Position numbers and translations under genes: made by a program. Of a DNA stretch of 52,657 nt, positions 1,449 to 27,982 are shown in pieces. Each line of letters opens with the position of its first letter. Within the stretch, counting starts at the first letter, position 1. The notes below the pieces were generated by a model. It was not told where the DNA came from, searched no databases, and saw only the letters and a program-made list of their open reading frames with translations. Source of the stretch: Planctomycetota bacterium (GTDB taxonomy: Bacteria > Planctomycetota > Planctomycetia > Pirellulales > Pirellulaceae); assembly GCA_026692905.1 (NCBI GenBank), contig JAPLNL010000100.1, forward strand, positions 1 through 52,657, written 5' to 3'.

Positions 1449-2240
1449 TCAAGGACGCAACTTTGGGATGTCCCAAGTCTTGCCGTTCCATTTCGCGTTG
1501 GCGACGTCCAAATTCATCTCATCCAATTTTGCTTGAACGGCTTGGAAGTCAGGATCCTTCAAACGATAGTCTCCGGGATTTTTTAGATGCGTAACAAAAA
1601 CATTCGCTTCTGGACCAATATGCGGGTCAGCCCCCTTTTCCAAAAGATAGAGAACGACTTTCCATCCTGACTTCATCGCAAAAAGGGACAAAGGATTCTC
1701 CTTATCGACGATTACATTATTCAGGTCTGCGTTTGCATCAATGAGAAACTTAGCATTTTCCACACTTCGTGGAGATCCTGTGTTGAAACAAAATGTTGCA
1801 GCCAAAGGGGTAGCTGAATTGTTCCTGTGCGTTTTCGTCCAGAGATTTGGATCAGCACCGTGTATTATCACTTCCCTTAGCCAATAGTCTTCGGAAAGCA
1901 AAGCACATCTAAAGGTTACTGTTTGTTTGTTCGCTAAGAAGAAATCCGGATCCGCCCCACACTCAAGTAGTGCTCTAAACGCATACTTCTTACGCTTTTC
2001 CAATGCATATTCTAGCGGTGTTTTTCTGCTAAGGAACCCAATCTTATTTAATTCCCTTTTGGGATCGCGAATACTCATAATCGATTCGACTTCGTCACAA
2101 TCAATCGCACTCCAGACATCCTTGGAACGACGGTTGTTTGCATTCGTACAACCACTGTAAGAAAAGTAGATCGGTATAATCATCGCAATCACATAGCAAC
2201 GGAGCTTATTCGGGAAGAATTTCATATCGAGTAACTTCAT
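1449..2240 (-). CDS. ankyrin-repeat lipoprotein, candidate immunity protein
   Basis: The product has a basic n-region, a hydrophobic stretch (CYVIAMIIPIYFSYSG) and a Cys that fits a relaxed lipobox (YSGC), so it is probably a lipoprotein. At least three ankyrin-type units follow: TPLEYALEKRKKYAFRALLE-CGADPD, an LLSEDYWLREVIIHGADPN unit, and a late WKVVLYLLEKGADPHI unit. Three in-frame ATGs exist, at 2267, 2240 and 2225. I chose 2240 because it gives a normal signal-peptide length; 2225 is equally plausible, and 2267 would overlap the giant toxin gene by 11 bases. It sits immediately downstream of the lipase-encoding 3' end of the giant RHS gene and is co-oriented. Ankyrin proteins are a recognised class of immunity protein in polymorphic toxin loci, so protection against that lipase is the likely role. 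This is inferred from position, not shown. Confidence 0.8.
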   Translation of the reverse strand: MKLLDMKFFPNKLRCYVIAMIIPIYFSYSGCTNANNRRSKDVWSAIDCDEVESIMSIRDPKRELNKIGFLSRKTPLEYALEKRKKYAFRALLECGADPDFFLANKQTVTFRCALLSEDYWLREVIIHGADPNLWTKTHRNNSATPLAATFCFNTGSPRSVENAKFLIDANADLNNVIVDKENPLSLFAMKSGWKVVLYLLEKGADPHIGPEANVFVTHLKNPGDYRLKDPDFQAVQAKLDEMNLDVANAKWNGKTWDIPKLRP

Positions 2241-2256
2241 ATATGTACGTGCGTAA

Positions 2257-3132
2257 TTAAGCAGCATTAAGGGCTGGGATAACTGAATCTACCATCTTAT
2301 GTCTTGTTGCAAAACTGTGTGCTGGATTTGCCGCTAGCCAATACGCGGTGCCTTGGGAATTAGGCATCATCAGGCCAGTGAAGGAAAGGGAGTCCTGAAT
2401 TGTACTCAAGAATTCACCTTGGACACGGTAGGCATCCACTAATTGATTGATGTTGTCGAGTGTTCCGCGTCCGTGCTCGGAAACCGTCCATGGATGTACC
2501 CCAGCAGCATTGAAGGTGACTGCGGACCGCTGAAAGACTGCGGCAGCGGCCGTCGCCAGCCCACCTCCCAAGGAATGGCCGACAAAGATGATTTCCTTTC
2601 CTAGATTTGCAGGGTCGTCAATGATTTTCATCGCATCCTCAATTGCCAAATCGTATTCTGCGCCGCCACCCACCAAACCCTGAAAAACATCCGCGCCGAT
2701 GTCAGGAATATCATCGGTTCCTGCATAGCAGATGGCAATTTCATTTCTGCGAGTAAAGACTTTTCCGAAGTACCCTTTATGGCGTTCATTTTGCAGTTCG
2801 TCTAGATAAGCCCAGCCGTTTCCTGCTGCGTTTGGCTGGTCTGAGTAGCAATTGGTTGCCAAGTCTGCGTATTCAATTCCTCTTGCCTTTTTTGCGGCTG
2901 GGAGCGGTGTTACTTGTTGCGACCGCGAGTTGAGAATAAATCCTGAAAGCGTTGTGGTTCCCAGTGTGGCTGCAACTCTCATTGCGAGGAATGGATTAAA
3001 GGCTGCTAAGGCTCCAAGGGCCGCGCCAAACAACGCTGCCACTGCAATCTCTTGTGGGCTTCCTCCAGCTAAGAAAGCGGTACCGCCCCCTATCATTGCT
3101 CCTGCAATTGAAAATCCTATAACCAGCCCAGC
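2257..3132 (-). other. C-terminal toxin-like region: hydrophobic linker plus class-3-lipase-like domain
   Basis: Downstream of the RHS core motif (DPTGKMDG) the protein switches to a glycine/alanine-rich hydrophobic stretch (residues ~4955-5010). Variable RHS tips often begin this way. An alpha/beta-hydrolase domain follows. The nucleophile elbow GHSLGGG puts the catalytic serine at residue 5141. Upstream, a YAGTDD..DIGADVF segment followed by AEYDLA matches the oxyanion and helix region of class-3 lipases. The C-terminal PAHSFATRH supplies the candidate catalytic His (5226, less likely 5232). The usual acid residue seems to be replaced or shifted (YRVQGEFLS has Glu where many relatives have Asp). 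Phospholipase or lipase toxicity is inferred from the family and from the adjacent ankyrin gene. Confidence 0.85.
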
Positions 3133-6100
3133 TAACCCATCCATTTTTCCTGTCGGATCGTTGTGAAGAATGGGGTCACCATGCGTAAATGCATACTTGT
3201 TGTATGACTGCGGGTCCCGCGGATTGCCGATGAACGGATCGAGCCTCTCAAAGCGTCCGCTACTTGTCGAATACCATCTTGCCCTGAAATGATATAGACC
3301 CGTTTGGCTATCGAGCGATTCGCCATTGTAAAGAACATTCGTCAGGCTCGAATTGTTGGAGAGTCGGACGCCGGAACCATTGTGAATCGCCAGGAGTTCA
3401 CCGTAGGAACTGTAAGTGACCGCTTGCGCTAGTGCTGCTGCTGCAACGAATAGCGCCCGGACACTACCGTGTCCATCGTGGCCAAATGTCACGTTCGACA
3501 CCTGAGTCTCTTGACCTGTACCAGGTGCAATCGCAGTTATCGTCTGCGTGATCTCATCCATTCCAAAAGTCGTAGTGGTCCGCTTCGTGGGTTGTCCGGC
3601 TGCATTCTTGACCGTTTCAATAATGGTTTGTTCGTAGCCTGTCATGTTGGCTCGATCAATTACGTACTCCGTGCTGGAGTGAACACTCCAGGCGTCTGGG
3701 GCTTGAACCGGAGCGGAAGAAGCGATCGCGATGAATCTCATACCGCTCGTGTCGTAACGGTATTGCACTTGATTCCGGGCAGTCACCGATCCAAAGCCAT
3801 CCGAAGTGGTCGTGATCACTTTCTCAAGCTGACCACCCAAGGCAAACGACATCGACTGCACCACGCTCGATACGAAGGGGATGGAAACCGACTTGGATGT
3901 TTGCTGTGTGCCAGTCCAGTTGTAGTTGGTCGACTGTATTGCCGAGCCGCTCGGCGAACCAGTTGCGAACAGCCCATTGAACCGAATTTCACTCACCAAA
4001 CGATCGCTTGCGTCAAATGAATAGATATCTGTAACGTCCTCAGCCGTTCCTAGTTTGTCGATCGTTCGTCGGACACGATTGCCTACCAAGTCCATGAGAT
4101 AGGACTCCGTCTGGTCGAGAGTGTTGTTACTACTGTCCAGTTGTTCACCGGTTAGCCTACCGGCATTGTCATAAGTCCAATCGTATTTGTTGGTCAGGAC
4201 AGGGTTTGATGGAGTCGGACCGGTTCCCGTGCCGCCAAACGTCTCCGTGCTGGTCGTGCGTTTGCCATCGAGACTGTACTCGTAGTCAAACATGTCCTTT
4301 AGCAAGTTGTCGGTTAGGTCTGCATTGTTGGCATCGGCTTGATAATGACGCATCGCATCGAGACGATCCATTTTGTCGAATGTATAGTCCTCAACCACCG
4401 AATTCGGCAGCTCCATATAATCCAATCGACCCAGTAAATCATAAAACAGAGTCGTCGCTTCGGGCTGCAAACCCAACTCGGGACTGACGTCGACCAAGGT
4501 ACCGTCCCGAACAGTGGTCGTCACTGTTTTGAGTTTTCCAAAAGTGTCGTGGGTGTATGTCACAACAGAGCTTGGTGTCGAAAGTAGATTCCCACCGCTG
4601 TCTCGAAGATAAGCGTACACGCTGGTCTTGCGGCCTAGGAAATCGTATTCATAACCTATCGCACCATTGGGAGACGATTCTTGGATCAACCGACCTTGGG
4701 TATCATACGTGTTGGTCCAAATGTCGGCAGTAAACGCGTTGAAAATCGGACCACCACCTAATGCTCCGTTGGCATAAATATGTGTCGTCGTCTTCACTCG
4801 ACCAAACGCATCGAAAGTCATGCGAACCCGCTCCCACTTGACCCCAGCAGCTAATGTGCCGACTGTATTTGAAGTGAAGTTATTGTAGTCCGATGCATTG
4901 GCAAACAGATCGTAACCGACACCCCTGCCACCGCCAGCAAACGTATCATCGTAAATGATCCGCTTGTGGACGCCTTCGAAGGAGATCGAGAGCGACAATC
5001 GCCTCTGCACATCGTACGACATCGACTCCGATTGGCCGGACGGCAAGATGCGGCCGGTAGGCTGACCTGCTGAGCTGAACGCGAAATGGGTGGTGGAGCT
5101 ATTGGCGTCGATCAACTTGCTCATCAAACCTAAGTTGTTGTATTCGTACCGGTAGGTTGGGCGAGTCAGGATATTGTTGTTCTGCGGATTGGGCACTGCG
5201 GGGAGCATGACTTGAATGAGGCGATTGTCTCGGTCGTAGGTCATGTCCTTGCGATTCCCCATCGGACCGATTTCGGCGATGATACGATCTTTCGTATCAT
5301 ATTCGATACGGGTGGAAGTCCCGTCCGGGAGTATCGTTTGAATCACTCGGCCCACAGAATCGTGGACGCTTTCTGTGATCCTTTGTTTTGAACGGTCTAT
5401 GTCGCTCACCAAAGAGCTCTTGATGAACTGACCATTGGCAACAGTACCGTACTCGACGATCCCGGTAATGGATTGAAACTTTTGTCCGAGCGCATTGTAG
5501 ATGGTTTCTGTTCTCAGGCGAACGTAGTTGTTCGGGCCCCGAGCTACCAATCCGACGGAGGTAGCCAAAACATGCATTCCAACCGCTGCGATGGAGCGGC
5601 CTCGCGAATCGAATTCTGTCGTGGTCACTTGGCCATCAGCCGCTATTTCTCTGAAAACGCGACCTTGTGAATCATATTCCGTCTGAGTTCGAGAAGCTTC
5701 GATACCGGAATTGGAAATGGTGGTCTCATTTCCAGTTAGCGACACGATTGCACCCGAGACGCGACGCGTGCCGTTCGAGCGACCTCGGGAGTCGTACAAA
5801 TTGTTCGTTGCATAGACCGGAGGAGAAACACTGGCCGAACCTGTGTCGATATATTGGTCTGTCGCCAAGACGGATCGACCTTGCGAATCGAACACGGTAC
5901 GGCTCACGAGCCAAGCGTTTTGCCCTGTTTCAGTGGTTGTCTGAGTTCGAGTTTCCACCGTTTGGCCTTTCGCGTTGAATCTCACGCGAGTTTCACGACC
6001 GTAGCCGTCGGTAGAAAGGATATTGCGTCCGGAGGAATCGAAAACGCTCGTTTTTCGCGTGTGTGGAATAAGTGTTCCAGGGGCAACTATTTTGGCCTGC

Positions 6101-9100
6101 TGACTGTTAATAGGTCCAGACAACTCAATTCTAATACCATGCACTCGGTAGATTGCAGTGACGCGACCAGCTGGGTCATACTCAGTGCGAGTTGCATCAA
6201 TTGAATCTGGTGGCAAGTCTTCGGGATAGGCATCGGTAACGGCAATGGGTAGACCGACTGCGTCATAGACCGTGCGTGTGATGAACCAAGTGGCGGGGCC
6301 GTCGGTGCCGCTGGGGCGTTGTTGGGTACGATTCTCGATGACCCGACCGTCGATGTCGAATGTGGTTTCTCGCCGCAGGCCTGTGTCGCTGCTTGAGACG
6401 CGATCCTGTCCGGCCAGATCAAACTGAGTCTGCGTGCTTGAAACAAGAAACTGCGTAGGGATAACCGCAGTCTCGAAGTTGGCGAGGATATGCCTGCCTG
6501 CTGGCAATCGGCCTGCAAAGCTCGCGATCAATTTGTTGTCGTCATCGTAACGGCTGAGTCGCAGCGTTTGCACTTGATTGGGTGCGGTACCGTCAAGACT
6601 CCAGCCAGCGATATTATTGCCGATTTCATCGTAAATATCATGTTGTGTACGTCCCTGACCGGATGTCATCGACGTCGCTTCGCCAAATGCATTGTAGGTT
6701 GCATTGACGAGCAGATTGTTATTGCGATCTCGCAATTGAGTGACGTTTCCAAGATTATTGGATTGAAATCGCGTCGTGTTGCCGTCCGCATCGGCTGTGA
6801 ACGCGATCGAGCCGTTTGGGTTGTAGTTCGTAAGCGATTGGTTTCCGTGCGCATCGACGGCTGCGATCACGGCACCATGTTCATCGTGTGCGTTGCGAAG
6901 CGTGTTGCTAAACACATCGCGTTGTTCGATCATGTTGAAGTCTAAATCGTAGACATTGGTGGTCGTTAGATCATTCGTCTCGCCACTTATTGCATCGTCG
7001 AGCCCAATCACTTGGGTTTGCGTTAGTACATGCCCCTTTGAATCGAACGTTGATTTCGCAATCGCTCCAGTTTGGTCGACGGTTTGAACCACATTCCCGC
7101 GAGCATCGAGCGTCTTCGTTGAAATGAATCCATTGGCGTCGGTTACCGTTTGCGTGCGAGCTCCAATGTTATACGCAAGCGAAGCTGTTTTGCCCGAGGC
7201 GTTGGTCAGTGATTGAAATCGACCATCGGGGGCATACGTTGCGGCAGCAGCAGTTCGTCCCAATGCATCTGTGATCGAACTCAGGAAATGCGGGCGGTTC
7301 TCGGCGTACGAAAACTGCGTCATTGCTGAGAGGCGATTGGTAAAAGAAACGAGATCACCCGATCCATCGTACGCGTACTCCATACGCTTCCCACGCGGAT
7401 CGATTATCGTTGTGATGCGGTTTGCCCAGTCGCGTTTAAACACGATTCCTCGTCCATTTTTGGAGATGAACCCATCGGGGCTAACGGTCACTTCGTTGCC
7501 AGCTCGATCGACGATCGAAGAGAGATCACCCGTGCGGGCATCGATTATTAGCGATGAGCCATTTCGTAACTGCAGTTCGTACGAACCCCCGAACGTCGGA
7601 TCAGCTGGATTGTAGAGGCGGCCCGAGGCGTAATCGAGATAATCGTCCCCGACCTTCTTGAGCGTCACCGTATCCACAACTAATTTGCTCTTGATTCCGA
7701 CGTCCGCGACGAAGAATGGAACATAATCGAGAATGACTCCCAAAAAAGATGTGCCAGGTTTACCATAAAAGGTAAACCCTTCTTTGGTCCCGTCAGGGAG
7801 GGTCACGAAGATGCGATCTCCGTCACGGAACGGCACGTAACCCGACAAATCCGGCAGACGCTCCGGATCGATTTGTTTTTCGAGCTTGGTCTTTGCAATG
7901 TCGAGTGACCAACCGTAGCCGAAGTCACCTGACACCTTTGCATCCAACGAATCGTACCGGCGCGTTAGGGTGATGGGAACGCCGGCGATCGGGACGGTTA
8001 GATCGAGAAAGGCGACGTTGAAATTCCCGAGTTTGAGCGCTCCTTCGATTTGAACCGAAGCGGTATCGATTGTCTTATTGGCTCCCGAATCGACTGCAGT
8101 CAAAAGCAGCGTATAAGCTCCATTGCGAAGCACAGTCGTGTCGAGCTGTGCAATTGCGGTACCCGCGACGTTACCGGTGCCAGTGGCGAGAGTGGAGGAA
8201 CGACGCGTTTCGTCGTCGATCAGTTCGAGTCTCCAGTTCAGCAATGGAGCCTCGTCCAATAATTTGACATGGATCGGAGTTGGCTCGGACAAAGTGAAAT
8301 GTGGGCCGCCAAGAATTTGGGCAATGGGAGCTTTGATATCGTTGGGGTCAACTACCACTATTTCGAAGGGAGTGGCCGTTCCAACGTTGCCTGAAGGATC
8401 GGTGGCCGTTGCCGTAAATCGCAACAGGCCAATCAGATCGGTCGTGATTCGCAATCGCGTCGAGTGGTTCGAGTCCAGCGTTAACGGTTCATTGCGTGGT
8501 GTCGTGTTTCCGCCTCGAGTAACGCTAGCGAAAGTGAGTGCGCGTGAATCTACTCGAACGTTGTCCTTAAGTGACAAAAAGAGCAGGATCTCATCTCCCA
8601 ACCGAGGCGAGACCAGTTGGTTACCAGCCAAGTCTGTTGCACTGATCGAAAGCGTTGGAGTTACCGTGTCTGCGATGACAGTCAGTGTAAACGATTGCGA
8701 AACGGATGCCCGCCCGTCGGTTGCCGAAAGGGTGACGACTCGATTGCCAAGTGGAGTAGCAGCACCAGCGTTCGTAGCGATAGTTTGCCATCCGATGCGT
8801 CCTCGCTCAGCATCGATGGTGATCCCGGCCGCCAGCGACGCTGCATCTAAACTGAACCGTAGTGAATCGTTGTCCGCATCCGTCGCTGACGCATCGATTA
8901 GGTATCTGTCGCCGCGAACAATGGTTGCATTTGTTATGGTCTTCAGGACAGGGGCTGAATTGGCCGGTATTACCTTGACTAAAAAACTCTGGGTCGCAGT
9001 TAACTCACCATCCGATACGCGAATGGAGTGAGGAACCGACTGGTTCAGTTGGCTAGTGGTTGGTGTCCAGAGCAAGACTCCGGTAGCTGGATTGAAAGAA

Positions 9101-12100
9101 GCGTTGGGTGGAATGGGTGAAGGAGTGAGAAGAGTGTAAGTTAGGCCCGGCGAATCGGAGTCGAAGGCATCGAGGTCATAGGTGTACTGCAATCCAACCT
9201 CTGCCGTAAACAATGGCGACGTCGTGATACGAGGGGGTTGATTCGCGTTGGATGCGATCACCGCTAGTTCGTACAACTGAGAGGATTTCAAGCCTTGCCC
9301 ATCTTCTGCTACGATTTCGATGACGAAGGTTCCATACGATTTTGGAGTCCAAGATAGAATTCCCGTTTCGCTGTCGATGTCGAGATCGATGCCAACCGCG
9401 GTCGTTCTGTTTCCCAGACTGAATCGGATCCGATCTCCATCGGCGTCGGATGCTCGAACGGCATAGTTGTACGGTTTGTCGATCGGCGTCGAAGTGACAG
9501 GGAACGACGAGATAACCGGAGGGCGATTGGCGAGAGCTACGTCGATCGTACCGGCTTGTTCGGCCGAGCCCCCGCGCATGTCTGAAACTCGAAGCCGAAT
9601 GGGGTGAATACCGACTTGAAATGAAGTTGGATTCCAATCGACGATACCCGTGCGCGCGTTGATTTTCATTCCCGATGGTGAAGCAACCAATTCGAAACGA
9701 AGCGTGTCTCCTTCCGTATCGAACGCGTCTGCATCGTAAACGAACGGTTTGCCTGCAATGGTACTGTTCGGTGGTTGCGTGGTGAATCGAGGTGAATCGT
9801 TTTGCGGGTAGTTGGAAACCGTGATGGTAATGGATCGCGAGTTCGTCAAGAATCCGTCGCTTGCGCTGATCGTGAAGATATTTTGGCCGAGTTGCGACAG
9901 GCTCGGATTCCATTTCAATACCCCAGGTGATTCGAGCGCCATGCCAGATGGAGCATTGACAATGCTATAAACGAGTGAATCGTTGTCCGGGTCGATAGCA
10001 TTGATTGTGTGAACGAAGGTACGGCCACGCTCGATTTGACCGGACGGGTTCGACAGAATCTGCGGTGGTCTGTTGACGTTCGAGGTATTGACCGCAAGAT
10101 CATAGCGTTGAACGGACTGAGCTCCGAGCGGGTCCGCAACGGAGATTGCGATAGGATGCAGGCCAAGCATCGGAGTTGACCAGCGAAGGATGCCCGTTAT
10201 GGGATCGAGTGCCATCCCTTTCTCCGTTGAGTCGGAATCGAGCTTGAATCGCAGTGTGTTCGCAGCATCATCCAGATCGACTGCGTTTGCATCGTAGAGA
10301 TAAGCCGCCCCGACGGTGGCCTTGATGACGGGAGTCGTTGTAAATTCCGGCGGCTCGTTCGGTACAATATTGAGCGTGAACGACTCGATGTCATTGCCAC
10401 CGTGGCCATCGTCAACTTTGAGCGTTACGCGCGAGGTCGTTAGACTTGTGTCAGCAAACCAAGCGAGAGTTCCGGACGCAGGGTCGATCACCATTCCGGA
10501 GGGCCCGAACTCCAACGAGTAAGTCAGCGCATCGCCATCGGCATCGCTGGCGGTTGGTGTATACAGGTACCGCTTGCCCTGGATGGCCGTTGTATTGGGT
10601 CTCGATGTGAATTCAGGAACATGGTTATTCGAACCGCGTGTCGTATTGCCGAAGACCAGATTTCCGATGGATTGATTCGCAAAAACGACACCTTGGTAGC
10701 GTTGGCTCGAAGGAAGCGTAGGTGCCCATGCTGCCTGCATCACGATCGCAAGTGTGAATGCGCCTGGAGTTACATTTCCCAGTGAATAGTCTCCCGCTGC
10801 ATTCGAAGTTGTCGAACGTTCGCCTAGGTCAAGCCTGTTGTTTTGGTTGGAATCCAGGTAAATCGTCCAATTGGAAAGCGGAGGGTCCGTGCTGGCCCGC
10901 GTTCCATCGCCATCGACATCGAAGAAGACGTTACCGCTCAAGGTAGCGGGCGTTGCGTTGAGCACTTCGAGGAGATAGGACTGAAGCACTTTCCAACCTT
11001 TGCCATCGGTCACTTCGATTTCAATCGGTTGGAAGCCTACGTTTGCATCGGATGGGTTCCACGCTACCTGACCGGAGGAAGTGCTGATACTCATCCCCAT
11101 TGGAGCTGTAGTGAGTCGATACGAGAGCAGGTCGCGGTCGGGATCGATAGCGACAGTGGAATAGAGATATGGCTGTCCCGAAAGCGTTTTAAGAATCGGA
11201 GTTGAAGTGAACTCTGGGGCACGATTTCCAAGCTCGGGTAGAACTTGTACTTGGAACTGCTGAAGACTACGACTATTGGGTTTGTTGTCGGAGGCAACCA
11301 GCGAAACCAAATTCAAACCGGCGTTGATGGCTGTGGGAGTCCACGTCAGTCTAGCCGTCGCGACTGCCGAAGTGCTCGCTGTTGGCGAGAGTGCCATGCC
11401 ACCCGGCAAATTCCCTTCAGCAGCAAAAACAACAAGATCGCCGTCCGCATCGGTCGCTACAATGTTGTATTCGTAGTCCTCACCGATACGAACTGTAACA
11501 ACTGGGATCGAGGTAAAGATTGGAGCACGATTGGGGGTAGGAGCCGTCACGTTCAGCACAAAGGCTTGTCGGGTGGTTGCGCCTTGTCCATCGGAAGCGG
11601 CGATGGAAATGCTATGCGTTCCGATGTCGCTTGCAGCCGGGTTCCACTGCAGGCTGCCGTCGATTAGGAGCATTCCCTTCGGACACGTCAATAGTTTTAG
11701 GCTGATGGGGTCAGCATCGGCGTCCGCAACTTGGATGGCGTATCGATATGAGGTTCCTGAAAAAGCCGATGGGATAGGCGCTGAGGTGAACTGTGGTGCG
11801 CGATTGAGTTGAGCAAGTAGAGTTGTTGCGAAGGTAAATGGGGATCGAGTTGGATTGAAGAACGAGAGCAATCCGCGATCTGATGTTTGGTTGGGGGCGA
11901 GTGTTTTGGAGGATACAAATCGACTCATGTCATAGTAGGGAATTCCCTCCTCAGTGAAGCCATCGATGTCGCTTGGGACAACTCGTGGGTTACTGATATT
12001 CATTATTCCAACTACCACGGGCGTTTTGATTGGGTATTGCCCTAGGTTGGCAATGTCGAATTCGGAGTAGAGGACTCTATTCTTTTCATTCCAGGAGGTC

Positions 12101-15100
12101 AGACCATGTGTCACTTGGCTGCTGGACAGTTCCGACAGCGTCGTCATGAAGTCCGATTTTTTCGTGGAATCGAGTCCTTCCAACGACAGGTCGGCCGTGG
12201 CTGAGGCTCCATAGGAATCGACAGCCTTAAACGAATAGGTCGTCCGCCCAACTCGTGGTACCACGCGTGCGAAGAAGTTCCCGTTGGCATCGAGGGCGTC
12301 GACGGGCGAGCCGTCTATCGAAACGGAAACAATGCGGGCGGCTGGGATTGCGGCAGTAGCGTGACCCGTGATTAAGACGGGCGAGTTCGCTTGGTGCGAG
12401 CTAAGTTCCGTTGGTGACTCGATTGCGATTGCCGGTGACGGTGATATCCATTTCATCTTGGCGGATTGAGTCTTATCCCCAATGGACGCCGTGATGAGAT
12501 CCGTTCCAAGTTTCGTGCCGGTGTAACGAAACGTAGCGAGTCCGGATCCGTCGGTGAACGCGTAGCCGAGTTTCGCGTGCATGCCGGCAACTTCGAAATC
12601 AATTCGAATGCCAATTAATCGAGACCCGTTTTGATCGGTTGCCCAAGCCGTTACCGTGTGTTCAAGACCAAGTTGCGACTTGTCCATAGCAGGGATTAAG
12701 AACAGCGATTTTACGTTTGCAATTTCAGCCAACGCCATACCGCCCGGATAACCGTATGAGTCGTAGACGTTAAAGCCATACGAATAGATCCCAAATGGGA
12801 CTTCGCTAGTGAAGGAGTGAGAACCGACAGGAACGAACAGTTGTGCGGCGGAATGATTGGTATTCGTAATGGGCGTAAATAGGTTGGCTGCTATTGTCGT
12901 TCCGTCCATTTTTAGGGAAGCGACGGCCGCGGTTGGAATCACCAAGTTCATGAAGTTCATGGCAAAATTGGCTGCGGGTGTGCTAACGGTGTAGTTTGCT
13001 AAAAACTGTTCTGACGGTGGGATGAGCATCATGAATGGATCGGCGTTCGTGTTATCAAACCCTTGTCCGTTTGCGTATTGAGCGACCAACACCGGCCGAT
13101 TTGTTTTGATTCGAGAGGCTTGCGAGAGGAGCGTTTCGTAGACTTCGCCTTGATTGATGATTCGGACGACAGTCCCGTTGATGCTGATTGAGGTTGCGTC
13201 CTGCGATGCAATGACTCGAACGGTGTCGCCAACGCGTCGAGTTGCAAGCGGGACTGTATAGAAATTTGTACCCCAAGTGGATGTTGGTGGTATCTGCTCG
13301 ACCACATAATCGCAAAGTGGCACATTGGTTGGGATGTTTGCGCAGGAATGGCCCCCATAGACCGCGATTGGCTCGTTGGATGAGAGAAGTGTACCTGATA
13401 AATCGAGCGGGATTCCTTGTGCCTGCAGTTGGTACGATTGGCCTGCGTTGAGCGTGACGGTGTAAGGTACACCAGGTTGTCGACCCAGAGTTGAAGCGGA
13501 TGGCGTGATTCGAACCGTCGTGTTGTTTTCCGTGGCAACAAAATTCACTTGAGTGCGTGCATAGAACGCATCAACTGTGTTTTTCCAGCCTAGAACCATG
13601 TACTCGGTATCTAAAATATCGAGCGGGATCCCAGTAAAGGCATCGGTTGTTTGTTCGATTTGGTTTAGGCCATAAACGGCAACTTCTTCTTTGCTTACGA
13701 CATGGATCCCGAGATCGTTAATGACACCATTGGCACCTTTGGGATCGGCTGCGGTCGGGATGTTTACGGTTGTGGTCTGATTCGGTTGGACGGTAAAGGG
13801 TTGGCTGAAATTGAGGCCTGGGATGGATACGGTTCCCGTGGTGCTGTACGGAGATGAGATGTACAGGTACAGGTTTTTTGGTCCGGCAAAACCGGCGCCG
13901 TCACCTAAATTGGTGGGGAAGGCCAGCCAGAATTCGGTTCCAAGATTGTCACGTGTGATTGGCCCACTGTCGTCATCGATAATCGTACCTTTCGCGGTTG
14001 CCTGAGCGATTCCTGCGAAGGTGGGTTGTGCCAAGGTAACCAGAAAGCGCTCCATGGATTCCGCGATAGAATCGTTGACAACTTGAACGGTGAGAGTTTG
14101 CGTCGTTTGGCCTGGTGCGAAGACAAGTATCCCGTTTTGGCTTCGATAGTCTGACGGTTCTACCGCCGAGTCGTTGCTGGTAAAGTAATTGACGGTAACA
14201 CTGTCTGTACTTGGTCGGTTCAGCGATACCGTGAATTGAAAATCGGTTTGCGACTCCGGTTGTCGCAGGTTTCGGATAGAGAGCATTGGTGCGTCAAGGG
14301 TCAGAGTTAGATCGTTACTATTGCTGCCATTGCCTGCATAATTGACGCGGTAGTTTCGGCCATCGAGCATTACGGTCGCGTTGTTCGGAAGGTTTGAAAA
14401 TGTTCCAGCAATTCCCTCGATTCCGTCGTTGTCGATAAAAACGATTTCGTTGGCAGCGATTGGAATGCTTGTTCGATTGATGGCCACGTTCCCATTGAGT
14501 GAGATGGTTCCGATCACTTGGAGTTGGTCGTATCCTATGATGGGTTGATCTGATTGCCAGTCCAAGGAAAGTAGCCCTGAGGCAGTCTGCGTGTAAGTGC
14601 CAATCACATTCAGAACGCCGATGGTATTGCCTATCTTGAATTCACCAGCATTGGAAACATTACCGACGAGACTGCCAGTCCCCAACAGTTGGCCTCCCAA
14701 TATTCTGATCCCGTTTGAAGGACCGCTCTGTGCCGTAATCGCTCCTCCATCCAGCTTCACAGAGCCTGAAGTTTGTTGGTAGCCAATGGTCGCAATCGGA
14801 GGCGTGGTTTGTGTCGAAAATGTAACCAGTTGAGCTGATGTTCCGATTGAGACCGATCCTGCGTTGGAGATGCCAGCGTTGATTCGGATGGTTCCGGACT
14901 CGATGAATACCGATCCTGCTGCATTGTTCGTAATTGCTAAATGCAAAATGGATTCATCGGATCCATTCGGTTTGCGCAGGGTACCTGAGTTACTGAAAGG
15001 CCGCGGAACCAAATTGCGGTTGAAATTTCCAAAACTTATGTCGATGTCATTTTCGATTCTAAACTCACCTGACGCAAGGTTTTGAAAGCTTGCGTTATTG

Positions 15101-17994
15101 CTTAGAAAGAGGCTACCCAGGGCGTTAACCCGTCCGCTATTCACGAATGGCCGGTCTAACGTTTTGACACCAACTCCAGTAATATCAGCGGTTGCCGACG
15201 AAGCGATCTCGATGTTGCCTGTCCCACGCAAAGTTCCGCCGTTCCATGCGAACCGATTTGTTACGAAAACGTTTCCGCTGCCTTCCAGGGCTCCACCGTC
15301 GTCGAGAGTGAATCGCGTGAGTTCGCAAGTAGATACGGCATTCAAAACGCCGGCAGATGAGATGTGGATCGTCTCGAGCGAGGCCAGGCTTCTTGCGTTC
15401 GCTTGTCCTGTGATTTCGATATTGAAGTCGCCGTTAGGAATGTCGATGACGACGTCGTCATCAATATTAGGAACGCGTGCGGGACTCCAATTGCTGGCTG
15501 AGTTCCAGTTGCCACCGGAGGCTCCGATCCAGCGGATGGTAGGCGGATCGGCGATGTCTTCTGGATCGGCATTCTCAGCGTTGAGATTGTAGGTCGTGGT
15601 GGCGTTTTGAGCTTGCGAGGAGGACAGCCAATTCAACGCTCCTGTGTAGGCGTAGATTTTGCGAGTCCCTTTGTCGACGGTCCAAAGATCAGAACCGCCA
15701 GCCGGGTTGAGCGTTACCCCCGTTGCGGCGCTGTTCAATGGATCGAGTGGCCAGGAACCTAACGCTGAACCATCCATCCCATAAACAAAGATTCGATCAG
15801 CGAGTGAATCGGAAACCCAGAGTCGAGTCCCATTGGTAACAATACCAGTCGGCTGAGTATTGTTGGGAGCTAACGCAAAGGATGTTGACGCGGTTAAAGA
15901 GCCTGATAAGACGCGGGCGCCATCCTGGAATCGATAAACTCGGTCTGTATTTGGGCTTACAGTCCAGGCATCATTCCCCCAAACGGTGATCCCTTCACTG
16001 GAGACTCCTTCGTTGGCAATCCAGCTTCCCAAAGCGATTCCGGTTACCGGCTCAAAAACGGAAACATTTTGAGTTGAATCGACTAGCCAAAGCCTGTCGC
16101 CGTTGGATGACATGGCCGAACCCCGTACATCTCGCACCGGGGATATTGGCAAGTAGCGTTTGGGACTACCATCGCTTGAATAACGATACGCGGCAGCGTC
16201 CCCCGAGTCAGGTACAAAGAATTTGCTTGACGAGGTAGGATTGCTGACGAGTGGCGGCGCTAGCAAGGAACCGAGCGACGCATCCGCGGTCGTCAAACCA
16301 GATTGATTTCGCGTGACGAGGGTGACGTCGTTGCTCAAGATCGATGCGCTGCCATTCACATCCATCAGGGGATTGTAGGTTCCTATTCCGGATTGGGCGC
16401 GTGTCACCAGAGTGACATCGCTTGAGAGGACAGTTCCTGAGCTGTTCACGTCACCTCGTACAACGGTTAGCGGCAAATTGTATGGGTCACCTGGTGTGCC
16501 GTCTCCATTACCATCGATAAGACTGCCTTGAGCATCACGAATCGTGTCAAGCAGCGTCAATTGCACTTTATCAGTGGTAAATACTAATCCAGAACGAAGG
16601 GTGAGTTCTAACGTTTTTGCGTCTGGACGAGCGAGCGTTAACCCCGTGTTGTAGTCAATCGCTAGTGAGGGCGATCCGGAAAGAACGATATCGCTAAGGT
16701 TGATGGCGGTGATTGGCTCGGAGAATTGAACGCGAAGCTGATTCAGGTTAAACCAAGGCAAATTCCTGGTATTGCCGAGCAACGGATAGCCAAGTGCAGC
16801 GTAAGCGAAATTGTTGCTCCACAGCGTTGAATCAGCAAACGCACTAACAATGGTTGGCGATATCCGTAGATTCACTTTGACTGGCTGTGAGAACGACGCT
16901 CCATCGGACACTCGATAAGTGAAATAGTCGTTGCCCGTAAAGCCAGTGTTAGGAGTGTACGTAAACGAACCATCCGCTTGAAAACTGACTGTCCCATTGT
17001 TTGGACCTTGATTGCTACCGACCCATTGAATCGCGGAAAGAGTTCCACTGTCGATATCGTAATCGTTTCGAAGGACGCCGTTTGCGCTTGAGATTTGGAG
17101 CGGCTGGTCGAATCGCACCGAGTAGTTATCGTCAACAGCTACCGGTGCATCGTTGATTGCTGTTACCGCAATAAAAACAGTTGCTAGCGAGGATTGGAGA
17201 AATCCATCACTAGCAACGTACGTAAACGAGTCGTTGCCTGTGTAATTCGCGTTAGGAGCATAGACAAAAGCGCCGTCGGGCTGAAGGGAAACGGTTCCGA
17301 ATTGAGGTTTAGCTGATAAGATTGCTTGGAGGGCATCCCCATTCGGGTCTGAATCATTCCTGAGAATTCCCGGCGTTACGATGTTCAGCGGTGTATCCTC
17401 GGAGGCCAAATAACTATCATTGTCAGCAAAAGGAGCACTGTTCTGAAAGTAGAGACGAGCAAAGGTACCATTATCGTTTTTGGCCGAGTTGTCATTGTTG
17501 ACCAATCGTACGAAAAGCGTCCCTGTCGTACCCGCTAAGATCGTATTTAGAGCCAGCGACACATTTCCGTGGAGCTCGTTACCAATCATCGAAGTGGTCA
17601 GTGTCGTCGAAGTTCCGAAAGCAGACGGTTGTCCTTCGGTTAGATTCAAGAAGCTATCGCGTCTGGTGGCGAAGGTTGGCACGATCGAGTTCCCAAGAGA
17701 GTCGATGAAGCCGAACTCTAAGGCATCGTTGATTTGCGCTGCATCTCGATCGAACCGTAAGCTAAAGTCAAACTGTAGTGCATTTGCAGTTGCGGGGACG
17801 GTCCAGTTGGTAGAGAGAGTAGAAACGAAAGAAATTGGATTCGGGAATAGAAAACATGTTGAAAGGAGCAGTACCTGGTCCGCCGGGATCGACAATACGG
17901 CCGTTTGCAATTCCGTCGGCGTCTCCCCGGCCTCCGTCCTGCAGGTACAACTGAAAGACACCCGACTCGAGCTTCGCCCCAGTCGTGCCATCAA
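2257..17994 (-). CDS. giant RHS-repeat surface protein with C-terminal lipase domain (main ORF)
   Basis: This 5245-codon frame encodes, in order (approximate residues): a beta-sandwich (50-185) and two cadherin-like/VCBS-type repeats (188-380). Next come two dockerin-like GDVNSSG / DVNGSAS calcium-loop repeats (513-570), a blade-repeat propeller (585-800), and a GNWNSASNWSP module leading into a beta-helix-like region (822-1225). Calx-beta (1235-1341) and an IgGFc-binding-like domain (1345-1755) follow, then a Big-type Ig domain (~1775-1850). Ten He_PIG Ig-like repeats (2064-3109) are interrupted by an SdrD-B-like module near 2348-2440. After two Ig-like domains come RHS/YD repeats from 3319, the RHS core ending DPTGKMDG (4946-4953), and a hydrolase tail. 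The first ~50 codons are probably not translated: they are out of frame with the preceding ORF (17768-19672), which holds the true N-terminus. The protein is presumably secreted and cell-surface attached. Confidence 0.93.
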   Translation of the reverse strand: MMARLGRSSSRVSFSCTCRTEAGETPTELQTAVLSIPADQVLLLSTCFLFPNPISFVSTLSTNWTVPATANALQFDFSLRFDRDAAQINDALEFGFIDSLGNSIVPTFATRRDSFLNLTEGQPSAFGTSTTLTTSMIGNELHGNVSLALNTILAGTTGTLFVRLVNNDNSAKNDNGTFARLYFQNSAPFADNDSYLASEDTPLNIVTPGILRNDSDPNGDALQAILSAKPQFGTVSLQPDGAFVYAPNANYTGNDSFTYVASDGFLQSSLATVFIAVTAINDAPVAVDDNYSVRFDQPLQISSANGVLRNDYDIDSGTLSAIQWVGSNQGPNNGTVSFQADGSFTYTPNTGFTGNDYFTYRVSDGASFSQPVKVNLRISPTIVSAFADSTLWSNNFAYAALGYPLLGNTRNLPWFNLNQLRVQFSEPITAINLSDIVLSGSPSLAIDYNTGLTLARPDAKTLELTLRSGLVFTTDKVQLTLLDTIRDAQGSLIDGNGDGTPGDPYNLPLTVVRGDVNSSGTVLSSDVTLVTRAQSGIGTYNPLMDVNGSASILSNDVTLVTRNQSGLTTADASLGSLLAPPLVSNPTSSSKFFVPDSGDAAAYRYSSDGSPKRYLPISPVRDVRGSAMSSNGDRLWLVDSTQNVSVFEPVTGIALGSWIANEGVSSEGITVWGNDAWTVSPNTDRVYRFQDGARVLSGSLTASTSFALAPNNTQPTGIVTNGTRLWVSDSLADRIFVYGMDGSALGSWPLDPLNSAATGVTLNPAGGSDLWTVDKGTRKIYAYTGALNWLSSSQAQNATTTYNLNAENADPEDIADPPTIRWIGASGGNWNSASNWSPARVPNIDDDVVIDIPNGDFNIEITGQANARSLASLETIHISSAGVLNAVSTCELTRFTLDDGGALEGSGNVFVTNRFAWNGGTLRGTGNIEIASSATADITGVGVKTLDRPFVNSGRVNALGSLFLSNNASFQNLASGEFRIENDIDISFGNFNRNLVPRPFSNSGTLRKPNGSDESILHLAITNNAAGSVFIESGTIRINAGISNAGSVSIGTSAQLVTFSTQTTPPIATIGYQQTSGSVKLDGGAITAQSGPSNGIRILGGQLLGTGSLVGNVSNAGEFKIGNTIGVLNVIGTYTQTASGLLSLDWQSDQPIIGYDQLQVIGTISLNGNVAINRTSIPIAANEIVFIDNDGIEGIAGTFSNLPNNATVMLDGRNYRVNYAGNGSNSNDLTLTLDAPMLSIRNLRQPESQTDFQFTVSLNRPSTDSVTVNYFTSNDSAVEPSDYRSQNGILVFAPGQTTQTLTVQVVNDSIAESMERFLVTLAQPTFAGIAQATAKGTIIDDDSGPITRDNLGTEFWLAFPTNLGDGAGFAGPKNLYLYISSPYSTTGTVSIPGLNFSQPFTVQPNQTTTVNIPTAADPKGANGVINDLGIHVVSKEEVAVYGLNQIEQTTDAFTGIPLDILDTEYMVLGWKNTVDAFYARTQVNFVATENNTTVRITPSASTLGRQPGVPYTVTLNAGQSYQLQAQGIPLDLSGTLLSSNEPIAVYGGHSCANIPTNVPLCDYVVEQIPPTSTWGTNFYTVPLATRRVGDTVRVIASQDATSISINGTVVRIINQGEVYETLLSQASRIKTNRPVLVAQYANGQGFDNTNADPFMMLIPPSEQFLANYTVSTPAANFAMNFMNLVIPTAAVASLKMDGTTIAANLFTPITNTNHSAAQLFVPVGSHSFTSEVPFGIYSYGFNVYDSYGYPGGMALAEIANVKSLFLIPAMDKSQLGLEHTVTAWATDQNGSRLIGIRIDFEVAGMHAKLGYAFTDGSGLATFRYTGTKLGTDLITASIGDKTQSAKMKWISPSPAIAIESPTELSSHQANSPVLITGHATAAIPAARIVSVSIDGSPVDALDANGNFFARVVPRVGRTTYSFKAVDSYGASATADLSLEGLDSTKKSDFMTTLSELSSSQVTHGLTSWNEKNRVLYSEFDIANLGQYPIKTPVVVGIMNISNPRVVPSDIDGFTEEGIPYYDMSRFVSSKTLAPNQTSDRGLLSFFNPTRSPFTFATTLLAQLNRAPQFTSAPIPSAFSGTSYRYAIQVADADADPISLKLLTCPKGMLLIDGSLQWNPAASDIGTHSISIAASDGQGATTRQAFVLNVTAPTPNRAPIFTSIPVVTVRIGEDYEYNIVATDADGDLVVFAAEGNLPGGMALSPTASTSAVATARLTWTPTAINAGLNLVSLVASDNKPNSRSLQQFQVQVLPELGNRAPEFTSTPILKTLSGQPYLYSTVAIDPDRDLLSYRLTTAPMGMSISTSSGQVAWNPSDANVGFQPIEIEVTDGKGWKVLQSYLLEVLNATPATLSGNVFFDVDGDGTRASTDPPLSNWTIYLDSNQNNRLDLGERSTTSNAAGDYSLGNVTPGAFTLAIVMQAAWAPTLPSSQRYQGVVFANQSIGNLVFGNTTRGSNNHVPEFTSRPNTTAIQGKRYLYTPTASDADGDALTYSLEFGPSGMVIDPASGTLAWFADTSLTTSRVTLKVDDGHGGNDIESFTLNIVPNEPPEFTTTPVIKATVGAAYLYDANAVDLDDAANTLRFKLDSDSTEKGMALDPITGILRWSTPMLGLHPIAISVADPLGAQSVQRYDLAVNTSNVNRPPQILSNPSGQIERGRTFVHTINAIDPDNDSLVYSIVNAPSGMALESPGVLKWNPSLSQLGQNIFTISASDGFLTNSRSITITVSNYPQNDSPRFTTQPPNSTIAGKPFVYDADAFDTEGDTLRFELVASPSGMKINARTGIVDWNPTSFQVGIHPIRLRVSDMRGGSAEQAGTIDVALANRPPVISSFPVTSTPIDKPYNYAVRASDADGDRIRFSLGNRTTAVGIDLDIDSETGILSWTPKSYGTFVIEIVAEDGQGLKSSQLYELAVIASNANQPPRITTSPLFTAEVGLQYTYDLDAFDSDSPGLTYTLLTPSPIPPNASFNPATGVLLWTPTTSQLNQSVPHSIRVSDGELTATQSFLVKVIPANSAPVLKTITNATIVRGDRYLIDASATDADNDSLRFSLDAASLAAGITIDAERGRIGWQTIATNAGAATPLGNRVVTLSATDGRASVSQSFTLTVIADTVTPTLSISATDLAGNQLVSPRLGDEILLFLSLKDNVRVDSRALTFASVTRGGNTTPRNEPLTLDSNHSTRLRITTDLIGLLRFTATATDPSGNVGTATPFEIVVVDPNDIKAPIAQILGGPHFTLSEPTPIHVKLLDEAPLLNWRLELIDDETRRSSTLATGTGNVAGTAIAQLDTTVLRNGAYTLLLTAVDSGANKTIDTASVQIEGALKLGNFNVAFLDLTVPIAGVPITLTRRYDSLDAKVSGDFGYGWSLDIAKTKLEKQIDPERLPDLSGYVPFRDGDRIFVTLPDGTKEGFTFYGKPGTSFLGVILDYVPFFVADVGIKSKLVVDTVTLKKVGDDYLDYASGRLYNPADPTFGGSYELQLRNGSSLIIDARTGDLSSIVDRAGNEVTVSPDGFISKNGRGIVFKRDWANRITTIIDPRGKRMEYAYDGSGDLVSFTNRLSAMTQFSYAENRPHFLSSITDALGRTAAAATYAPDGRFQSLTNASGKTASLAYNIGARTQTVTDANGFISTKTLDARGNVVQTVDQTGAIAKSTFDSKGHVLTQTQVIGLDDAISGETNDLTTTNVYDLDFNMIEQRDVFSNTLRNAHDEHGAVIAAVDAHGNQSLTNYNPNGSIAFTADADGNTTRFQSNNLGNVTQLRDRNNNLLVNATYNAFGEATSMTSGQGRTQHDIYDEIGNNIAGWSLDGTAPNQVQTLRLSRYDDDNKLIASFAGRLPAGRHILANFETAVIPTQFLVSSTQTQFDLAGQDRVSSSDTGLRRETTFDIDGRVIENRTQQRPSGTDGPATWFITRTVYDAVGLPIAVTDAYPEDLPPDSIDATRTEYDPAGRVTAIYRVHGIRIELSGPINSQQAKIVAPGTLIPHTRKTSVFDSSGRNILSTDGYGRETRVRFNAKGQTVETRTQTTTETGQNAWLVSRTVFDSQGRSVLATDQYIDTGSASVSPPVYATNNLYDSRGRSNGTRRVSGAIVSLTGNETTISNSGIEASRTQTEYDSQGRVFREIAADGQVTTTEFDSRGRSIAAVGMHVLATSVGLVARGPNNYVRLRTETIYNALGQKFQSITGIVEYGTVANGQFIKSSLVSDIDRSKQRITESVHDSVGRVIQTILPDGTSTRIEYDTKDRIIAEIGPMGNRKDMTYDRDNRLIQVMLPAVPNPQNNNILTRPTYRYEYNNLGLMSKLIDANSSTTHFAFSSAGQPTGRILPSGQSESMSYDVQRRLSLSISFEGVHKRIIYDDTFAGGGRGVGYDLFANASDYNNFTSNTVGTLAAGVKWERVRMTFDAFGRVKTTTHIYANGALGGGPIFNAFTADIWTNTYDTQGRLIQESSPNGAIGYEYDFLGRKTSVYAYLRDSGGNLLSTPSSVVTYTHDTFGKLKTVTTTVRDGTLVDVSPELGLQPEATTLFYDLLGRLDYMELPNSVVEDYTFDKMDRLDAMRHYQADANNADLTDNLLKDMFDYEYSLDGKRTTSTETFGGTGTGPTPSNPVLTNKYDWTYDNAGRLTGEQLDSSNNTLDQTESYLMDLVGNRVRRTIDKLGTAEDVTDIYSFDASDRLVSEIRFNGLFATGSPSGSAIQSTNYNWTGTQQTSKSVSIPFVSSVVQSMSFALGGQLEKVITTTSDGFGSVTARNQVQYRYDTSGMRFIAIASSAPVQAPDAWSVHSSTEYVIDRANMTGYEQTIIETVKNAAGQPTKRTTTTFGMDEITQTITAIAPGTGQETQVSNVTFGHDGHGSVRALFVAAAALAQAVTYSSYGELLAIHNGSGVRLSNNSSLTNVLYNGESLDSQTGLYHFRARWYSTSSGRFERLDPFIGNPRDPQSYNKYAFTHGDPILHNDPTGKMDGLAGLVIGFSIAGAMIGGGTAFLAGGSPQEIAVAALFGAALGALAAFNPFLAMRVAATLGTTTLSGFILNSRSQQVTPLPAAKKARGIEYADLATNCYSDQPNAAGNGWAYLDELQNERHKGYFGKVFTRRNEIAICYAGTDDIPDIGADVFQGLVGGGAEYDLAIEDAMKIIDDPANLGKEIIFVGHSLGGGLATAAAAVFQRSAVTFNAAGVHPWTVSEHGRGTLDNINQLVDAYRVQGEFLSTIQDSLSFTGLMMPNSQGTAYWLAANPAHSFATRHKMVDSVIPALNAA
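3133..8040 (-). other. RHS/YD-repeat shell region of the giant protein
   Basis: This stretch encodes residues 3319-4953. It opens with the pre-RHS module seen in many secreted RHS proteins (ALKLGNFNVAF-LDLTVPIAGVPITLTRRYDSL). Many YD-type repeats follow, with motifs such as YDELGN, TYDRDNRL, VYDSQGR and YDTQGRLIQE. It ends with the RHS-associated core (YNGESLDSQTGLYHFRARWY then GRFERLDP and DPTGK). In known RHS proteins these repeats wrap into a hollow shell that encloses the C-terminal toxin and can self-cleave near the core. At ~1,640 residues the shell is of ordinary size for the family. Confidence 0.9.
8670..11805 (-). repeat. ten He_PIG Ig-like repeats within the giant protein
   Basis: Ten units begin with variants of N-x-x-P-x-F-T-S-x-P and contain a conserved (D)ADGD..(R)FSL turn, a GM.I/.GxLxWxP strand and a closing DG strand ending in L.V. 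Units are roughly 90-100 codons. The opening tetrapeptides are NRAP, NRAP, NRAP, NHVP, NEPP, NRPP, NDSP, NRPP, NQPP and NSAP. The third and fourth are separated by an SdrD-B-like module (ATLSGNVFFDVDGDG) with a calcium-site-like DxDxDG loop. Such arrays form a rigid extended stalk. The units have diverged, so this is an old expansion rather than a recent DNA-level tandem repeat. Confidence 0.85.
12745..13960 (-). other. IgGFc-binding-like domain in the giant protein
   Basis: Residues ~1345-1755 begin GTEFWLAFPTNLGDG and contain repeated beta units with phrases such as HVVSKEEVAVYGLN, VRITPS, EPIAVYGGHSCANIP and VEQIPPTSTWGTNF. They close with VPFGIYSYGFNVYDSYGYPGGM. This pattern matches the bacterial IgGFc-binding-like N-terminal family (PF17517), named after a mammalian mucus protein and widespread in secreted bacterial proteins. 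Ligand binding here is unproven. The domain sits between a Calx-beta module and a Big-type Ig domain, consistent with an adhesive function for the stalk. Confidence 0.75.
17768..17994 (-). other. frameshift junction between the two parts of the giant gene
   Basis: The two same-strand frames overlap here by 227 bases, and each looks meaningful on only one side. The upstream frame is sensible to about 17870 (GIANGRIVDPGGPGT). The downstream frame is sensible from about 17835 (STLSTNWTVPATANALQFDF). Dropping one C around TTTCTTTCGTTTC (about 17827-17839) would join them as ...ESNFF-VSTLSTNW. This fits a single-base insertion in the genome, an assembly error, or a +1 recoding site. No classic slippery codon with a stop codon is visible at the junction. 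Confidence 0.75.
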
Positions 17995-19672
17995 ACGAGA
18001 AGTCCACCAGCGAACTGGTTGCAGCGTCCATTTTCCAATATTGGTTAGCGGGTGTATCGGAGGGCAATCGTAGCTGAACGGTAGCCATTCCTCCGATGGG
18101 AATGTTTTCCAATTCGAAGCCGATCAAACCGTAAGGCAATTTTGCTTGGTCGGCAGACAGCGTTGGTAGAAACGTTCTAGCATTTTTGAAGGTGCCCGAA
18201 TGAGTCGATAGTGAAAGCCATTCACCGTACCTTGGATCCAAAAGGGATAGGGCATTGGCTTGTTGTCCATCTGGTACATTGTCCTGGTTGATGTCCGAGT
18301 GAAGCGTTGTCGACTCTAGACGATCGGGAACACCGTCGGCATCGCTATCAGAGCTTGAAGTATAGAAGTACGGGGCGGAGACATAGTCAAATGCGTTTGT
18401 GCCAACGACTCTCGCATACAAGTTGGCGTTTGAAACGAGATCACCGTTGATCAGGCCGGCAAATGTGCTAGTCGGATTGGTTGCCACAGCCTGCGATTTG
18501 GTTTGAAGGATACCGAGCGATCGAATCGCGGTTGAACCGCCGCTATTATCTGGGGGTAAAAGAAGAATTTCGATTCGCGAATTTGCGATGGGCTCGCCGT
18601 TGATTGAATTCACATGTTCTAGATGGTTCAACCGTCCCTCAACATAAATTCGGCTTGTCCCTTGGGTTGGCATCCTTTCTGCCAATGAAATCACCGGAGC
18701 AAAACTACCGCCCGTTTGGTGCAAGGGGATTTGTTGCAAAGAGAATGTGTCAGCAGCAATTGAAGCGAGCTTCGCATCAGCGTTGGAGGTTTTGTTCGAC
18801 GCTGAATCATACGACAACGGCTGAGTAGAATCGACTGATGGGCCGGCCGCGACCGATTGCACTGCTTGGGCTTTGGCTGTGCCGTTTTGCGATGGAGCGG
18901 TCGAAGTCATCGCCTGCACTCGACCGTCACTGCCCGATTCAACTGCACCTGCTCCGCCATCATGGAGATTTCCTGACGGCATGTTTGGCGGCATCGGAAG
19001 TCCATTGAGAGAAGTTGGGTTGTTCTGCGGTAGAGCTGGGTATCCTCCCCCCCCAGAGATGCCAGCAGGAGAATTGTTTCCGGCTGCCCCCAAGGTGATC
19101 GGATCGATTCGAGCGTTGTCCGGGATCGATGACTTGGTTGAATGAGCGGAAAGTTCGAGGGAGTTTTGTGAAAAGAATGATTCAATTGGCCTGATTGAGC
19201 CAGATGCTTGGGTGGCCGACAGCTGACTTGCAATTTGGTGCTGACTCGGAAACCTGAGATGTAAGTCTTTGTCCGTGGATGCCGTACTATTTAGCGCCTT
19301 CGCAAGGTCGTGCAGCGGTTTTGTCAGAGAGGATTGAAACAGAAGTGAATGTGAGAACTGGGCGCCGGCATTGCGAGTTAACAGTGGATTTGTCGTCAAA
19401 AGGGAATTGCGATTTTTAAGAGTGATCCGCGATCGCGTGTCGTCGTCAGGAATATCGGGTTTGACTTGGAGTGCCACGAGCAAGCTTTCAATCGATGCTG
19501 GGAGCATAGCACCAGGCGCGTCTCTTCGCTCCAGTGTTTCTATCAACAGAAATCTAAGTCCTCTTCGCTTCGTCTTAAACGATCTCGCCCTTTTTCTATT
19601 GGGGAGGGTTTGATTAGAAACGACCCGATTGGCGCGAGCTCGCACTTGATTGTGTAGATACAGTTGGGGCAT
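17768..19672 (-). CDS. N-terminal part of the giant protein (separated by a frameshift)
   Basis: This 634-codon frame has an arginine-rich start followed by RFLLIETLERRDAPGAML, matching the 'LE-R' N-terminal signal found on giant planctomycete exported proteins. Next comes a long Ser/Ala/Gln-rich low-complexity region (~70-330). A folded region (~340-590) follows, with a DSDADGVPDRLE and DINQDNVPDG calcium-type thrombospondin-3-like motif. The last convincing residues are ~NGRIVDPGGPGTAPFNMFSI; the final ~25 residues (ending CKCTTV) look like out-of-frame read-through. The protein logically continues in the +1 frame of the 2257-17994 ORF (FVSTLSTNWTVP...). I therefore treat the two ORFs as one gene of about 5,800 codons. 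A PEP-CTERM gene lies 85 bases upstream. Confidence 0.85.
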   Translation of the reverse strand: MPQLYLHNQVRARANRVVSNQTLPNRKRARSFKTKRRGLRFLLIETLERRDAPGAMLPASIESLLVALQVKPDIPDDDTRSRITLKNRNSLLTTNPLLTRNAGAQFSHSLLFQSSLTKPLHDLAKALNSTASTDKDLHLRFPSQHQIASQLSATQASGSIRPIESFFSQNSLELSAHSTKSSIPDNARIDPITLGAAGNNSPAGISGGGGYPALPQNNPTSLNGLPMPPNMPSGNLHDGGAGAVESGSDGRVQAMTSTAPSQNGTAKAQAVQSVAAGPSVDSTQPLSYDSASNKTSNADAKLASIAADTFSLQQIPLHQTGGSFAPVISLAERMPTQGTSRIYVEGRLNHLEHVNSINGEPIANSRIEILLLPPDNSGGSTAIRSLGILQTKSQAVATNPTSTFAGLINGDLVSNANLYARVVGTNAFDYVSAPYFYTSSSDSDADGVPDRLESTTLHSDINQDNVPDGQQANALSLLDPRYGEWLSLSTHSGTFKNARTFLPTLSADQAKLPYGLIGFELENIPIGGMATVQLRLPSDTPANQYWKMDAATSSLVDFSFDGTTGAKLESGVFQLYLQDGGRGDADGIANGRIVDPGGPGTAPFNMFSIPESNFFRFYSLYQLDRPRNCKCTTV

Positions 19673-27974: not shown

Positions 27975-27982
27975 GGCTCCCA

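Follow-up and report, generated by a model that had tools for sequence, protein, structure and literature searches.

The closest described system to the locus treated here is the Tle6/Tli pair of Enterobacter cloacae (PDB 9CYS, 7UBZ; PMC11470151), in which the phospholipase effector Tle is encoded next to Tli, an immunity protein that has ankyrin repeats and a lipoprotein signal. The ankyrin arc of Tli grips the lipase and the lid helix is held away, cytosolic Tli is required for making active Tle, and Tle is activated by a glycation crosslink between Arg180 and Lys461, the latter 13 residues past the catalytic His448 (PMC11470151). Slp of Serratia marcescens, which has been named a homologue of Tle (PMC11470151), is a lipase-like effector against bacteria, and the two genes after it, homologous to each other, are putative immunity genes (PMC4924876). 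The RHS polymorphic toxins have a common core ending in DPxG, an exchangeable C-terminal tip, a partner gene and displaced RHS ends, and in a survey table of them Imm-ank is paired with Tox-AHH, planctomycetes included (PMC3482391). We have analysed 52,657 nucleotides (nt) of a Planctomycetota bacterium of the Pirellulaceae (assembly GCA_026692905.1, contig JAPLNL010000100.1, positions 1 to 52,657), hereafter the window, which encodes a giant RHS protein with a lipase tip and, directly after it, an ankyrin-repeat protein. Tle is a cargo protein of the type VI secretion system (T6SS), and so is Slp, which depends on VgrG2 (PMC4924876), whereas the lipase of the window is the end of an RHS giant. 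Our literature searches, of limited coverage, found no description of a planctomycete lipase-ankyrin pair, or of a lipase-ankyrin pair on an RHS giant.

We think that the locus encodes a polymorphic RHS toxin with a phospholipase tip akin to Tle6 and an ankyrin immunity lipoprotein akin to Tli, and we would put the probability of this at about 0.8; the tip would be toxic, and the ankyrin protein would inhibit it. The basis is the fold and triad of the tip, the structural matches to one solved complex, the kept adjacency of the two genes, their correlated divergence, and recombination between tips and stalks. A lipase effector with an ankyrin immunity protein had already been proposed in a first-pass annotation made from the letters alone, and the linkage counts below and the solved Tle/Tli precedent, the latter as matched by predicted models, speak in favour of it.

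The lipase tip and the ankyrin lipoprotein

The features of the toxin and its neighbour are the following.

2257 to 17994, minus strand: giant open reading frame (ORF) of 5245 residues with stalk, RHS region and lipase tip (ORF call, Pfam, NCBIfam)
8395 to 17832, minus strand: stalk of cadherin/Big_9 repeats, Calx-beta, IgGFc_binding and He_PIG repeats (Pfam)
3145 to 8394, minus strand: RHS/YD repeats and RHS-associated core (Pfam RHS_repeat 2.6e-35; TIGR03696)
3148 to 3414, minus strand: RHS-associated core TIGR03696, residues 4861-4949 (NCBIfam, position converted from the scanned piece)
3145 to 3159, minus strand: DPTGK, end of the RHS region, residues 4946-4950
2980 to 3144, minus strand: two Gly-rich hydrophobic segments in the linker between core and lipase, residues 4951-4976 and 4981-5005 (Kyte-Doolittle windows)
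2260 to 2907, minus strand: lipase domain, residues 5030-5245 (PDB sequence match, model fold)
2572 to 2574, 2413 to 2415 and 2299 to 2301, minus strand: catalytic triad Ser5141, Glu5194 and His5232
1449 to 2225, minus strand: ankyrin-repeat lipoprotein gene from its likely start, M15 (start aligned with the sister gene)
2148 to 2150, minus strand: putative lipobox Cys40 (alignment of 19 rows, with the Cys in 15)

The RHS toxins cleave themselves at DPxG, and this motif is present in the giant as DPTGK. The first-pass annotation had seen an RHS core with DPTGK followed by GHSLGGG at the C-terminus, on a stalk with IgGFc-binding-like and He_PIG parts; the residue positions, that of Ser5141 included, were verified, and both stalk domains are matched by Pfam (IgGFc_binding at 3.5e-63). 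The span it gave, 1449 to 8040, holds the ankyrin gene and the RHS and tip end of the giant, but the rest of the giant lies outside it. The two hydrophobic segments are helices in the predicted model, with low confidence at the start.

The best PDB match of the tip by sequence is the T6SS lipase effector Tle of E. cloacae (E 1e-11), and the last ~215 residues are modelled as a lipase for which Foldseek and VIA-align likewise rank Tle, of the proposed family Tle6, first in the PDB. The two have the lipase fold and the Ser-Glu-His triad in common. In our alignment A1 the Ser is kept in 30/30 rows, the acid is Glu in 25 and Asp in 5, and the His is kept in 26/30; three of the remaining four rows are gapped or cut and one has Pro. 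Pfam Lipase_3 scored 20.8 bits on the tip, under the 22-bit cut-off, and no Pfam family was over its cut-off there. The NCBIfam entry SA1320_fam was rejected as the identity of the tip, being far below its cut-off.

The ankyrin ORF (1449-2267, minus strand, 272 residues) is directly downstream of the giant and matches Pfam Ank_2 at 4.5e-8, above the cut-off. Its earliest ATG (2267) had been said to overlap the toxin stop and does so, by 11 nt, but the likely start, M15 at 2225, is 31 nt past the stop. When the ankyrin protein was modelled separately from the tip, its first matches were 7ubz_A and 9cys_I, that is Tli, the immunity protein in the Tle crystal, with 20% identity over 201 residues. 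Both predicted structures thus match the E. cloacae pair best, and an ankyrin-repeat protein with an apparent lipoprotein signal adjoins the lipase here as it does there. In the sister locus (L221, contig CANHVO010000202.1) a second ankyrin ORF with a hydrophobic N-terminus follows the first, with a weak Ank_2 match below the cut-off.

There is one difference in the lipase itself. The position of the crosslink lysine, 13 past the catalytic His, is Ala5245 in the window, and just three A1 rows have Lys there: P0048 from Aeromonas, P0091 from Serratia, and the metagenomic P0006, which shares 51% identity with the tip. In 9 rows the position is beyond the end, and elsewhere other residues stand there. 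We predict from this alignment that the lipase of the window does not use the glycation crosslink and, since most planctomycete-like rows are without the lysine, that activation by glycation is not a feature of the whole family.

The nonsynonymous (dN) and synonymous (dS) divergences from the nearest named genome are 0.053 and 0.83 for the tip, 0.092 and 0.77 for the RHS core, and 0.134 and 0.94 for the ankyrin gene. As dN is well below dS in all three, they are not chance ORFs.

Linkage and exchange in other genomes

We searched for relatives of the lipase in 149 genomes of the family (241 with a second tip as query), 27 of the genus and 396 of the order. The loci came from the own genome, from 19 regions of the other 19 matching genomes of the 149-genome search, from 11 of the 241-genome search, and from 19 chosen ones, namely 18 among the strong matches of the order search (141 genomes matched; the strong ones were only partly sampled) and G163 from the 27-genome search. 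Lipases with the motif G[HQ]S[LM]GGG and testable downstream DNA were counted. Left out were L049 and the second of the L038 ORFs (complete in L275), which are untestable at the end; a contig present twice (L053 = L221); a fragment without the motif (L031, 3840-5399); L048, L271 and L274, without a match to the hidden Markov model (HMM); and lipases with a GGA/GGS nucleophile motif, of which L041, L046, L272 and L273 have no ankyrin and L237 has one. As control we took 60 RHS ends from the top of the longer list of the 149-genome family search, one to three per genome, with frames called by script and not checked by eye, and counted ORFs starting within 700 nt; the core frame was missed by the pattern in 13 and a stop or downstream DNA was lacking in the stretch in 11, leaving 36 usable.

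An ankyrin ORF is found downstream of 31/41 distinct related lipase ORFs in other planctomycete genomes and of 0/36 usable non-lipase RHS ends (Fisher test, p 3.7e-13). With RHS-carried lipases only, as judged by repeat and core patterns and including L237 (GGS) and L031 (split gene), it is 7/9 (p 7.9e-7), and with the GGA/GGS rows added 32/46. The ankyrin is within 300 nt in 30/41, and in L236 it is 1425 nt away. In the own genome the ankyrin HMM finds ankyrin ORFs at 8/8 loci (L001-L008, on four contigs). Conversely, the two best foreign matches of the ankyrin protein (P0001) in the 149 family genomes, in G066 and G081, adjoin lipase tips; weaker matches (E 1.4e-9 and above, other genomes too) were mostly left aside. 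Over the 31 pairs the distances among lipases and among ankyrins are correlated (Mantel r 0.780, reached by 0/5000 permutations). A lack of covariation between tip and ankyrin gene in related genomes, which had been named as what would overturn the proposal, did not occur, and a partner gene matches the type of tip as in other RHS toxins, with 10 exceptions. In two of these (L231, 4946-5971, and L270, 4021-4770, both plus strand) a DKNYY-family lipoprotein is in the place of the ankyrin, possibly, to judge by its position, a second immunity class. In L044 an LRR-like (leucine-rich repeat) protein follows the lipase, without any ankyrin, and in L035 (4151-5938, plus strand) the lipase is followed by an 84-residue hydrophobic protein and then by the end of a further RHS core, which bears another tip and looks like a displaced cassette. 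At L031 (G138) the RHS-lipase gene is split in two with a 387-residue transposase-like ORF between, and the ankyrin gene then follows.

The giants P0172, P0153 and P0149 were compared bin by bin with P0002. P0172 is 70-86% identical to the giant of the window in every bin up to residue 4945, but its lipase only 34%; P0153 is at 60-71%, with 44% in the lipase; and for P0149 the values are 29-36% for stalk and RHS region, 52% for the core end and 74% for the lipase. The first two fit the same core with different tips, which the first-pass annotation had advised looking for, and P0149 is the converse. In the compared giants the identity shifts at or near the DPxG boundary, and because stalk and lipase part there in P0172 and P0149, tips recombine near it. 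A conserved stalk and core with an exchangeable C-terminal domain is the layout of the RHS polymorphic toxins, and RHS cores are present in 100/149 family genomes.

Carriers, frame and delivery

The pair is also seen on carriers without RHS repeats. Two of them were scanned with Pfam: the carrier of L042 matches PF07595, a planctomycete extracellular motif, above the cut-off, and that of L036 matches it below the cut-off and has a dockerin as well. The lipase-ankyrin pair is a module that several secreted-type platforms share. The same lipase domain (PF26363) is annotated on the RHS proteins P0162, P0166, P0169, P0170 and P0171. These have PF03534 in addition, under the name SpvB/TcaC N-terminal domain in P0170, and are a further carrier type.

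The giant of the window differs from known RHS toxins in having a very long stalk of immunoglobulin (Ig)/cadherin type and an LE-R type N-terminus, not PAAR or another known delivery domain. The N-terminus had been placed in the giant ORF, but it is in an overlapping ORF in another frame.

17768 to 19672, minus strand: N-terminal part of the giant in the other frame, with LE-R type N-terminus and choice-of-anchor U domain (translation; NCBIfam choice_anch_U 5.7e-21)
17760 to 17835, minus strand: frame break that separates the two parts, position approximate (the P0147 match switches frame here)

An uninterrupted relative, P0147 (5773 residues), is 78-94% identical to the giant in every bin. 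Its residues 1-558 match residues 56-614 of ORF 17768-19672, from residue 583 it follows the frame of the giant, and residues 559-582 are in the match of neither frame. Since P0147 spans both frames, what is a single protein in this relative is broken in the window near 17.83 kb, by either an assembly error or a real lesion; the two frames were kept as separate ORFs.

No match to VipB (PF05943), the T6SS sheath gene and the only T6SS gene sought, was found in the genome, which is rated 95.95% complete, and no PAAR or VgrG domain is among the Pfam matches of the giant (both frames scanned for PAAR). Delivery as for Tle6, or by the N-terminal PAAR of the T6SS Rhs effectors, is therefore not supported. 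From its domain types we would guess that the giant is exported and displayed on the surface.

Elsewhere in the window, at 25481-29530 (minus strand), three co-oriented ORFs match tryptophan halogenase, radical SAM and asparagine synthase and may form a small biosynthetic cluster. An Rfam search gave 0 matches.

Alternatives and meaning

Some points weigh against a toxin with an antidote. Tli was matched by fold, starting from a predicted model (Z 18.1, against 17.1 in the next rows), and a PDB sequence search with the ankyrin protein gave generic ankyrins first, with Tli not in the best 60 of 200. The Mantel correlation does not remove the relatedness of the genomes, and 10/41 lipases are without a downstream ankyrin ORF (L035, L040, L044, L227, L229, L231, L233, L235, L270, L275). 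The broken frame also means that this copy may not be made whole, and the locus could even be a decayed remnant retained for immunity alone, with the LE-R part and the rest in different frames where P0147 has one protein. This we find unlikely, as 15.7 kb of open frame follow the break, dN is much lower than dS for the tip, the core and the ankyrin gene, and a single break in an assembly of 148 contigs may be an assembly error.

Some secreted lipases are known to have a membrane-anchored helper encoded directly after them, and the ankyrin protein could be a chaperone or activator of a nutrient lipase, like the lipase-specific foldases, and not an antidote. Helper and antidote can even be one protein, given the need for Tli in making active Tle (PMC11470151). 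The swapping of tips at the RHS core end, the second RHS end with another tip beside the lipase of L035 and the DKNYY lipoprotein that replaces the ankyrin after some lipases are however habits of toxins and immunity genes rather than of a fixed enzyme and its chaperone, and the best fold match of the modelled ankyrin protein is an inhibitor, which makes a mere helper quite improbable. It is still less probable that the lipase is aimed at eukaryotes such as algae or protists, and that the ankyrin protein has a role in host interaction or regulation, even if a giant PVC-group protein with RHS regions has been interpreted as predatory (PMC12057145). A toxin against eukaryotes only would require no such antidote, the putative lipobox is kept in most of the ankyrin rows, and the fold match of the predicted ankyrin structure is to the immunity protein of an antibacterial toxin.

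If the locus is a toxin with its antidote, the giant would be exported and project from the cell surface by its stalk of Ig/cadherin type, with the RHS shell enclosing the tip until cleavage at DPxG. The hydrophobic hairpin might then help the tip into the target membrane, and the tip would be passed into the envelope of a neighbouring cell and cut phospholipids there. The lipidated ankyrin protein at the maker's own membrane would, like Tli, bind the lipase in the region of the lid and so protect self and kin; because of the lipobox this grip is likely to be on the outer side of the inner membrane or in the periplasm.

The lipase and antidote families are known ones, on a carrier for which the literature searched gave no description. 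More tentatively, and with slightly less than even odds, we suggest that planctomycetes have a T6SS-independent contact weapon, in which exported RHS giants of >5000 residues on Ig/cadherin stalks pass a phospholipase akin to Tle6, with a membrane hairpin, into their neighbours, and in which lipase-immunity pairs (with ankyrin, sometimes with DKNYY lipoprotein) are transferred as cassettes between RHS giants and secreted carriers of other kinds. If this is true, the Tle6/Tli pair extends beyond T6SS and rides on a very different carrier. The giant planctomycete RHS proteins, whose role is little described in the literature searched, are hereby tied to a toxin and immunity protein whose crystal structure is solved, and their function is made testable by a two-gene assay.
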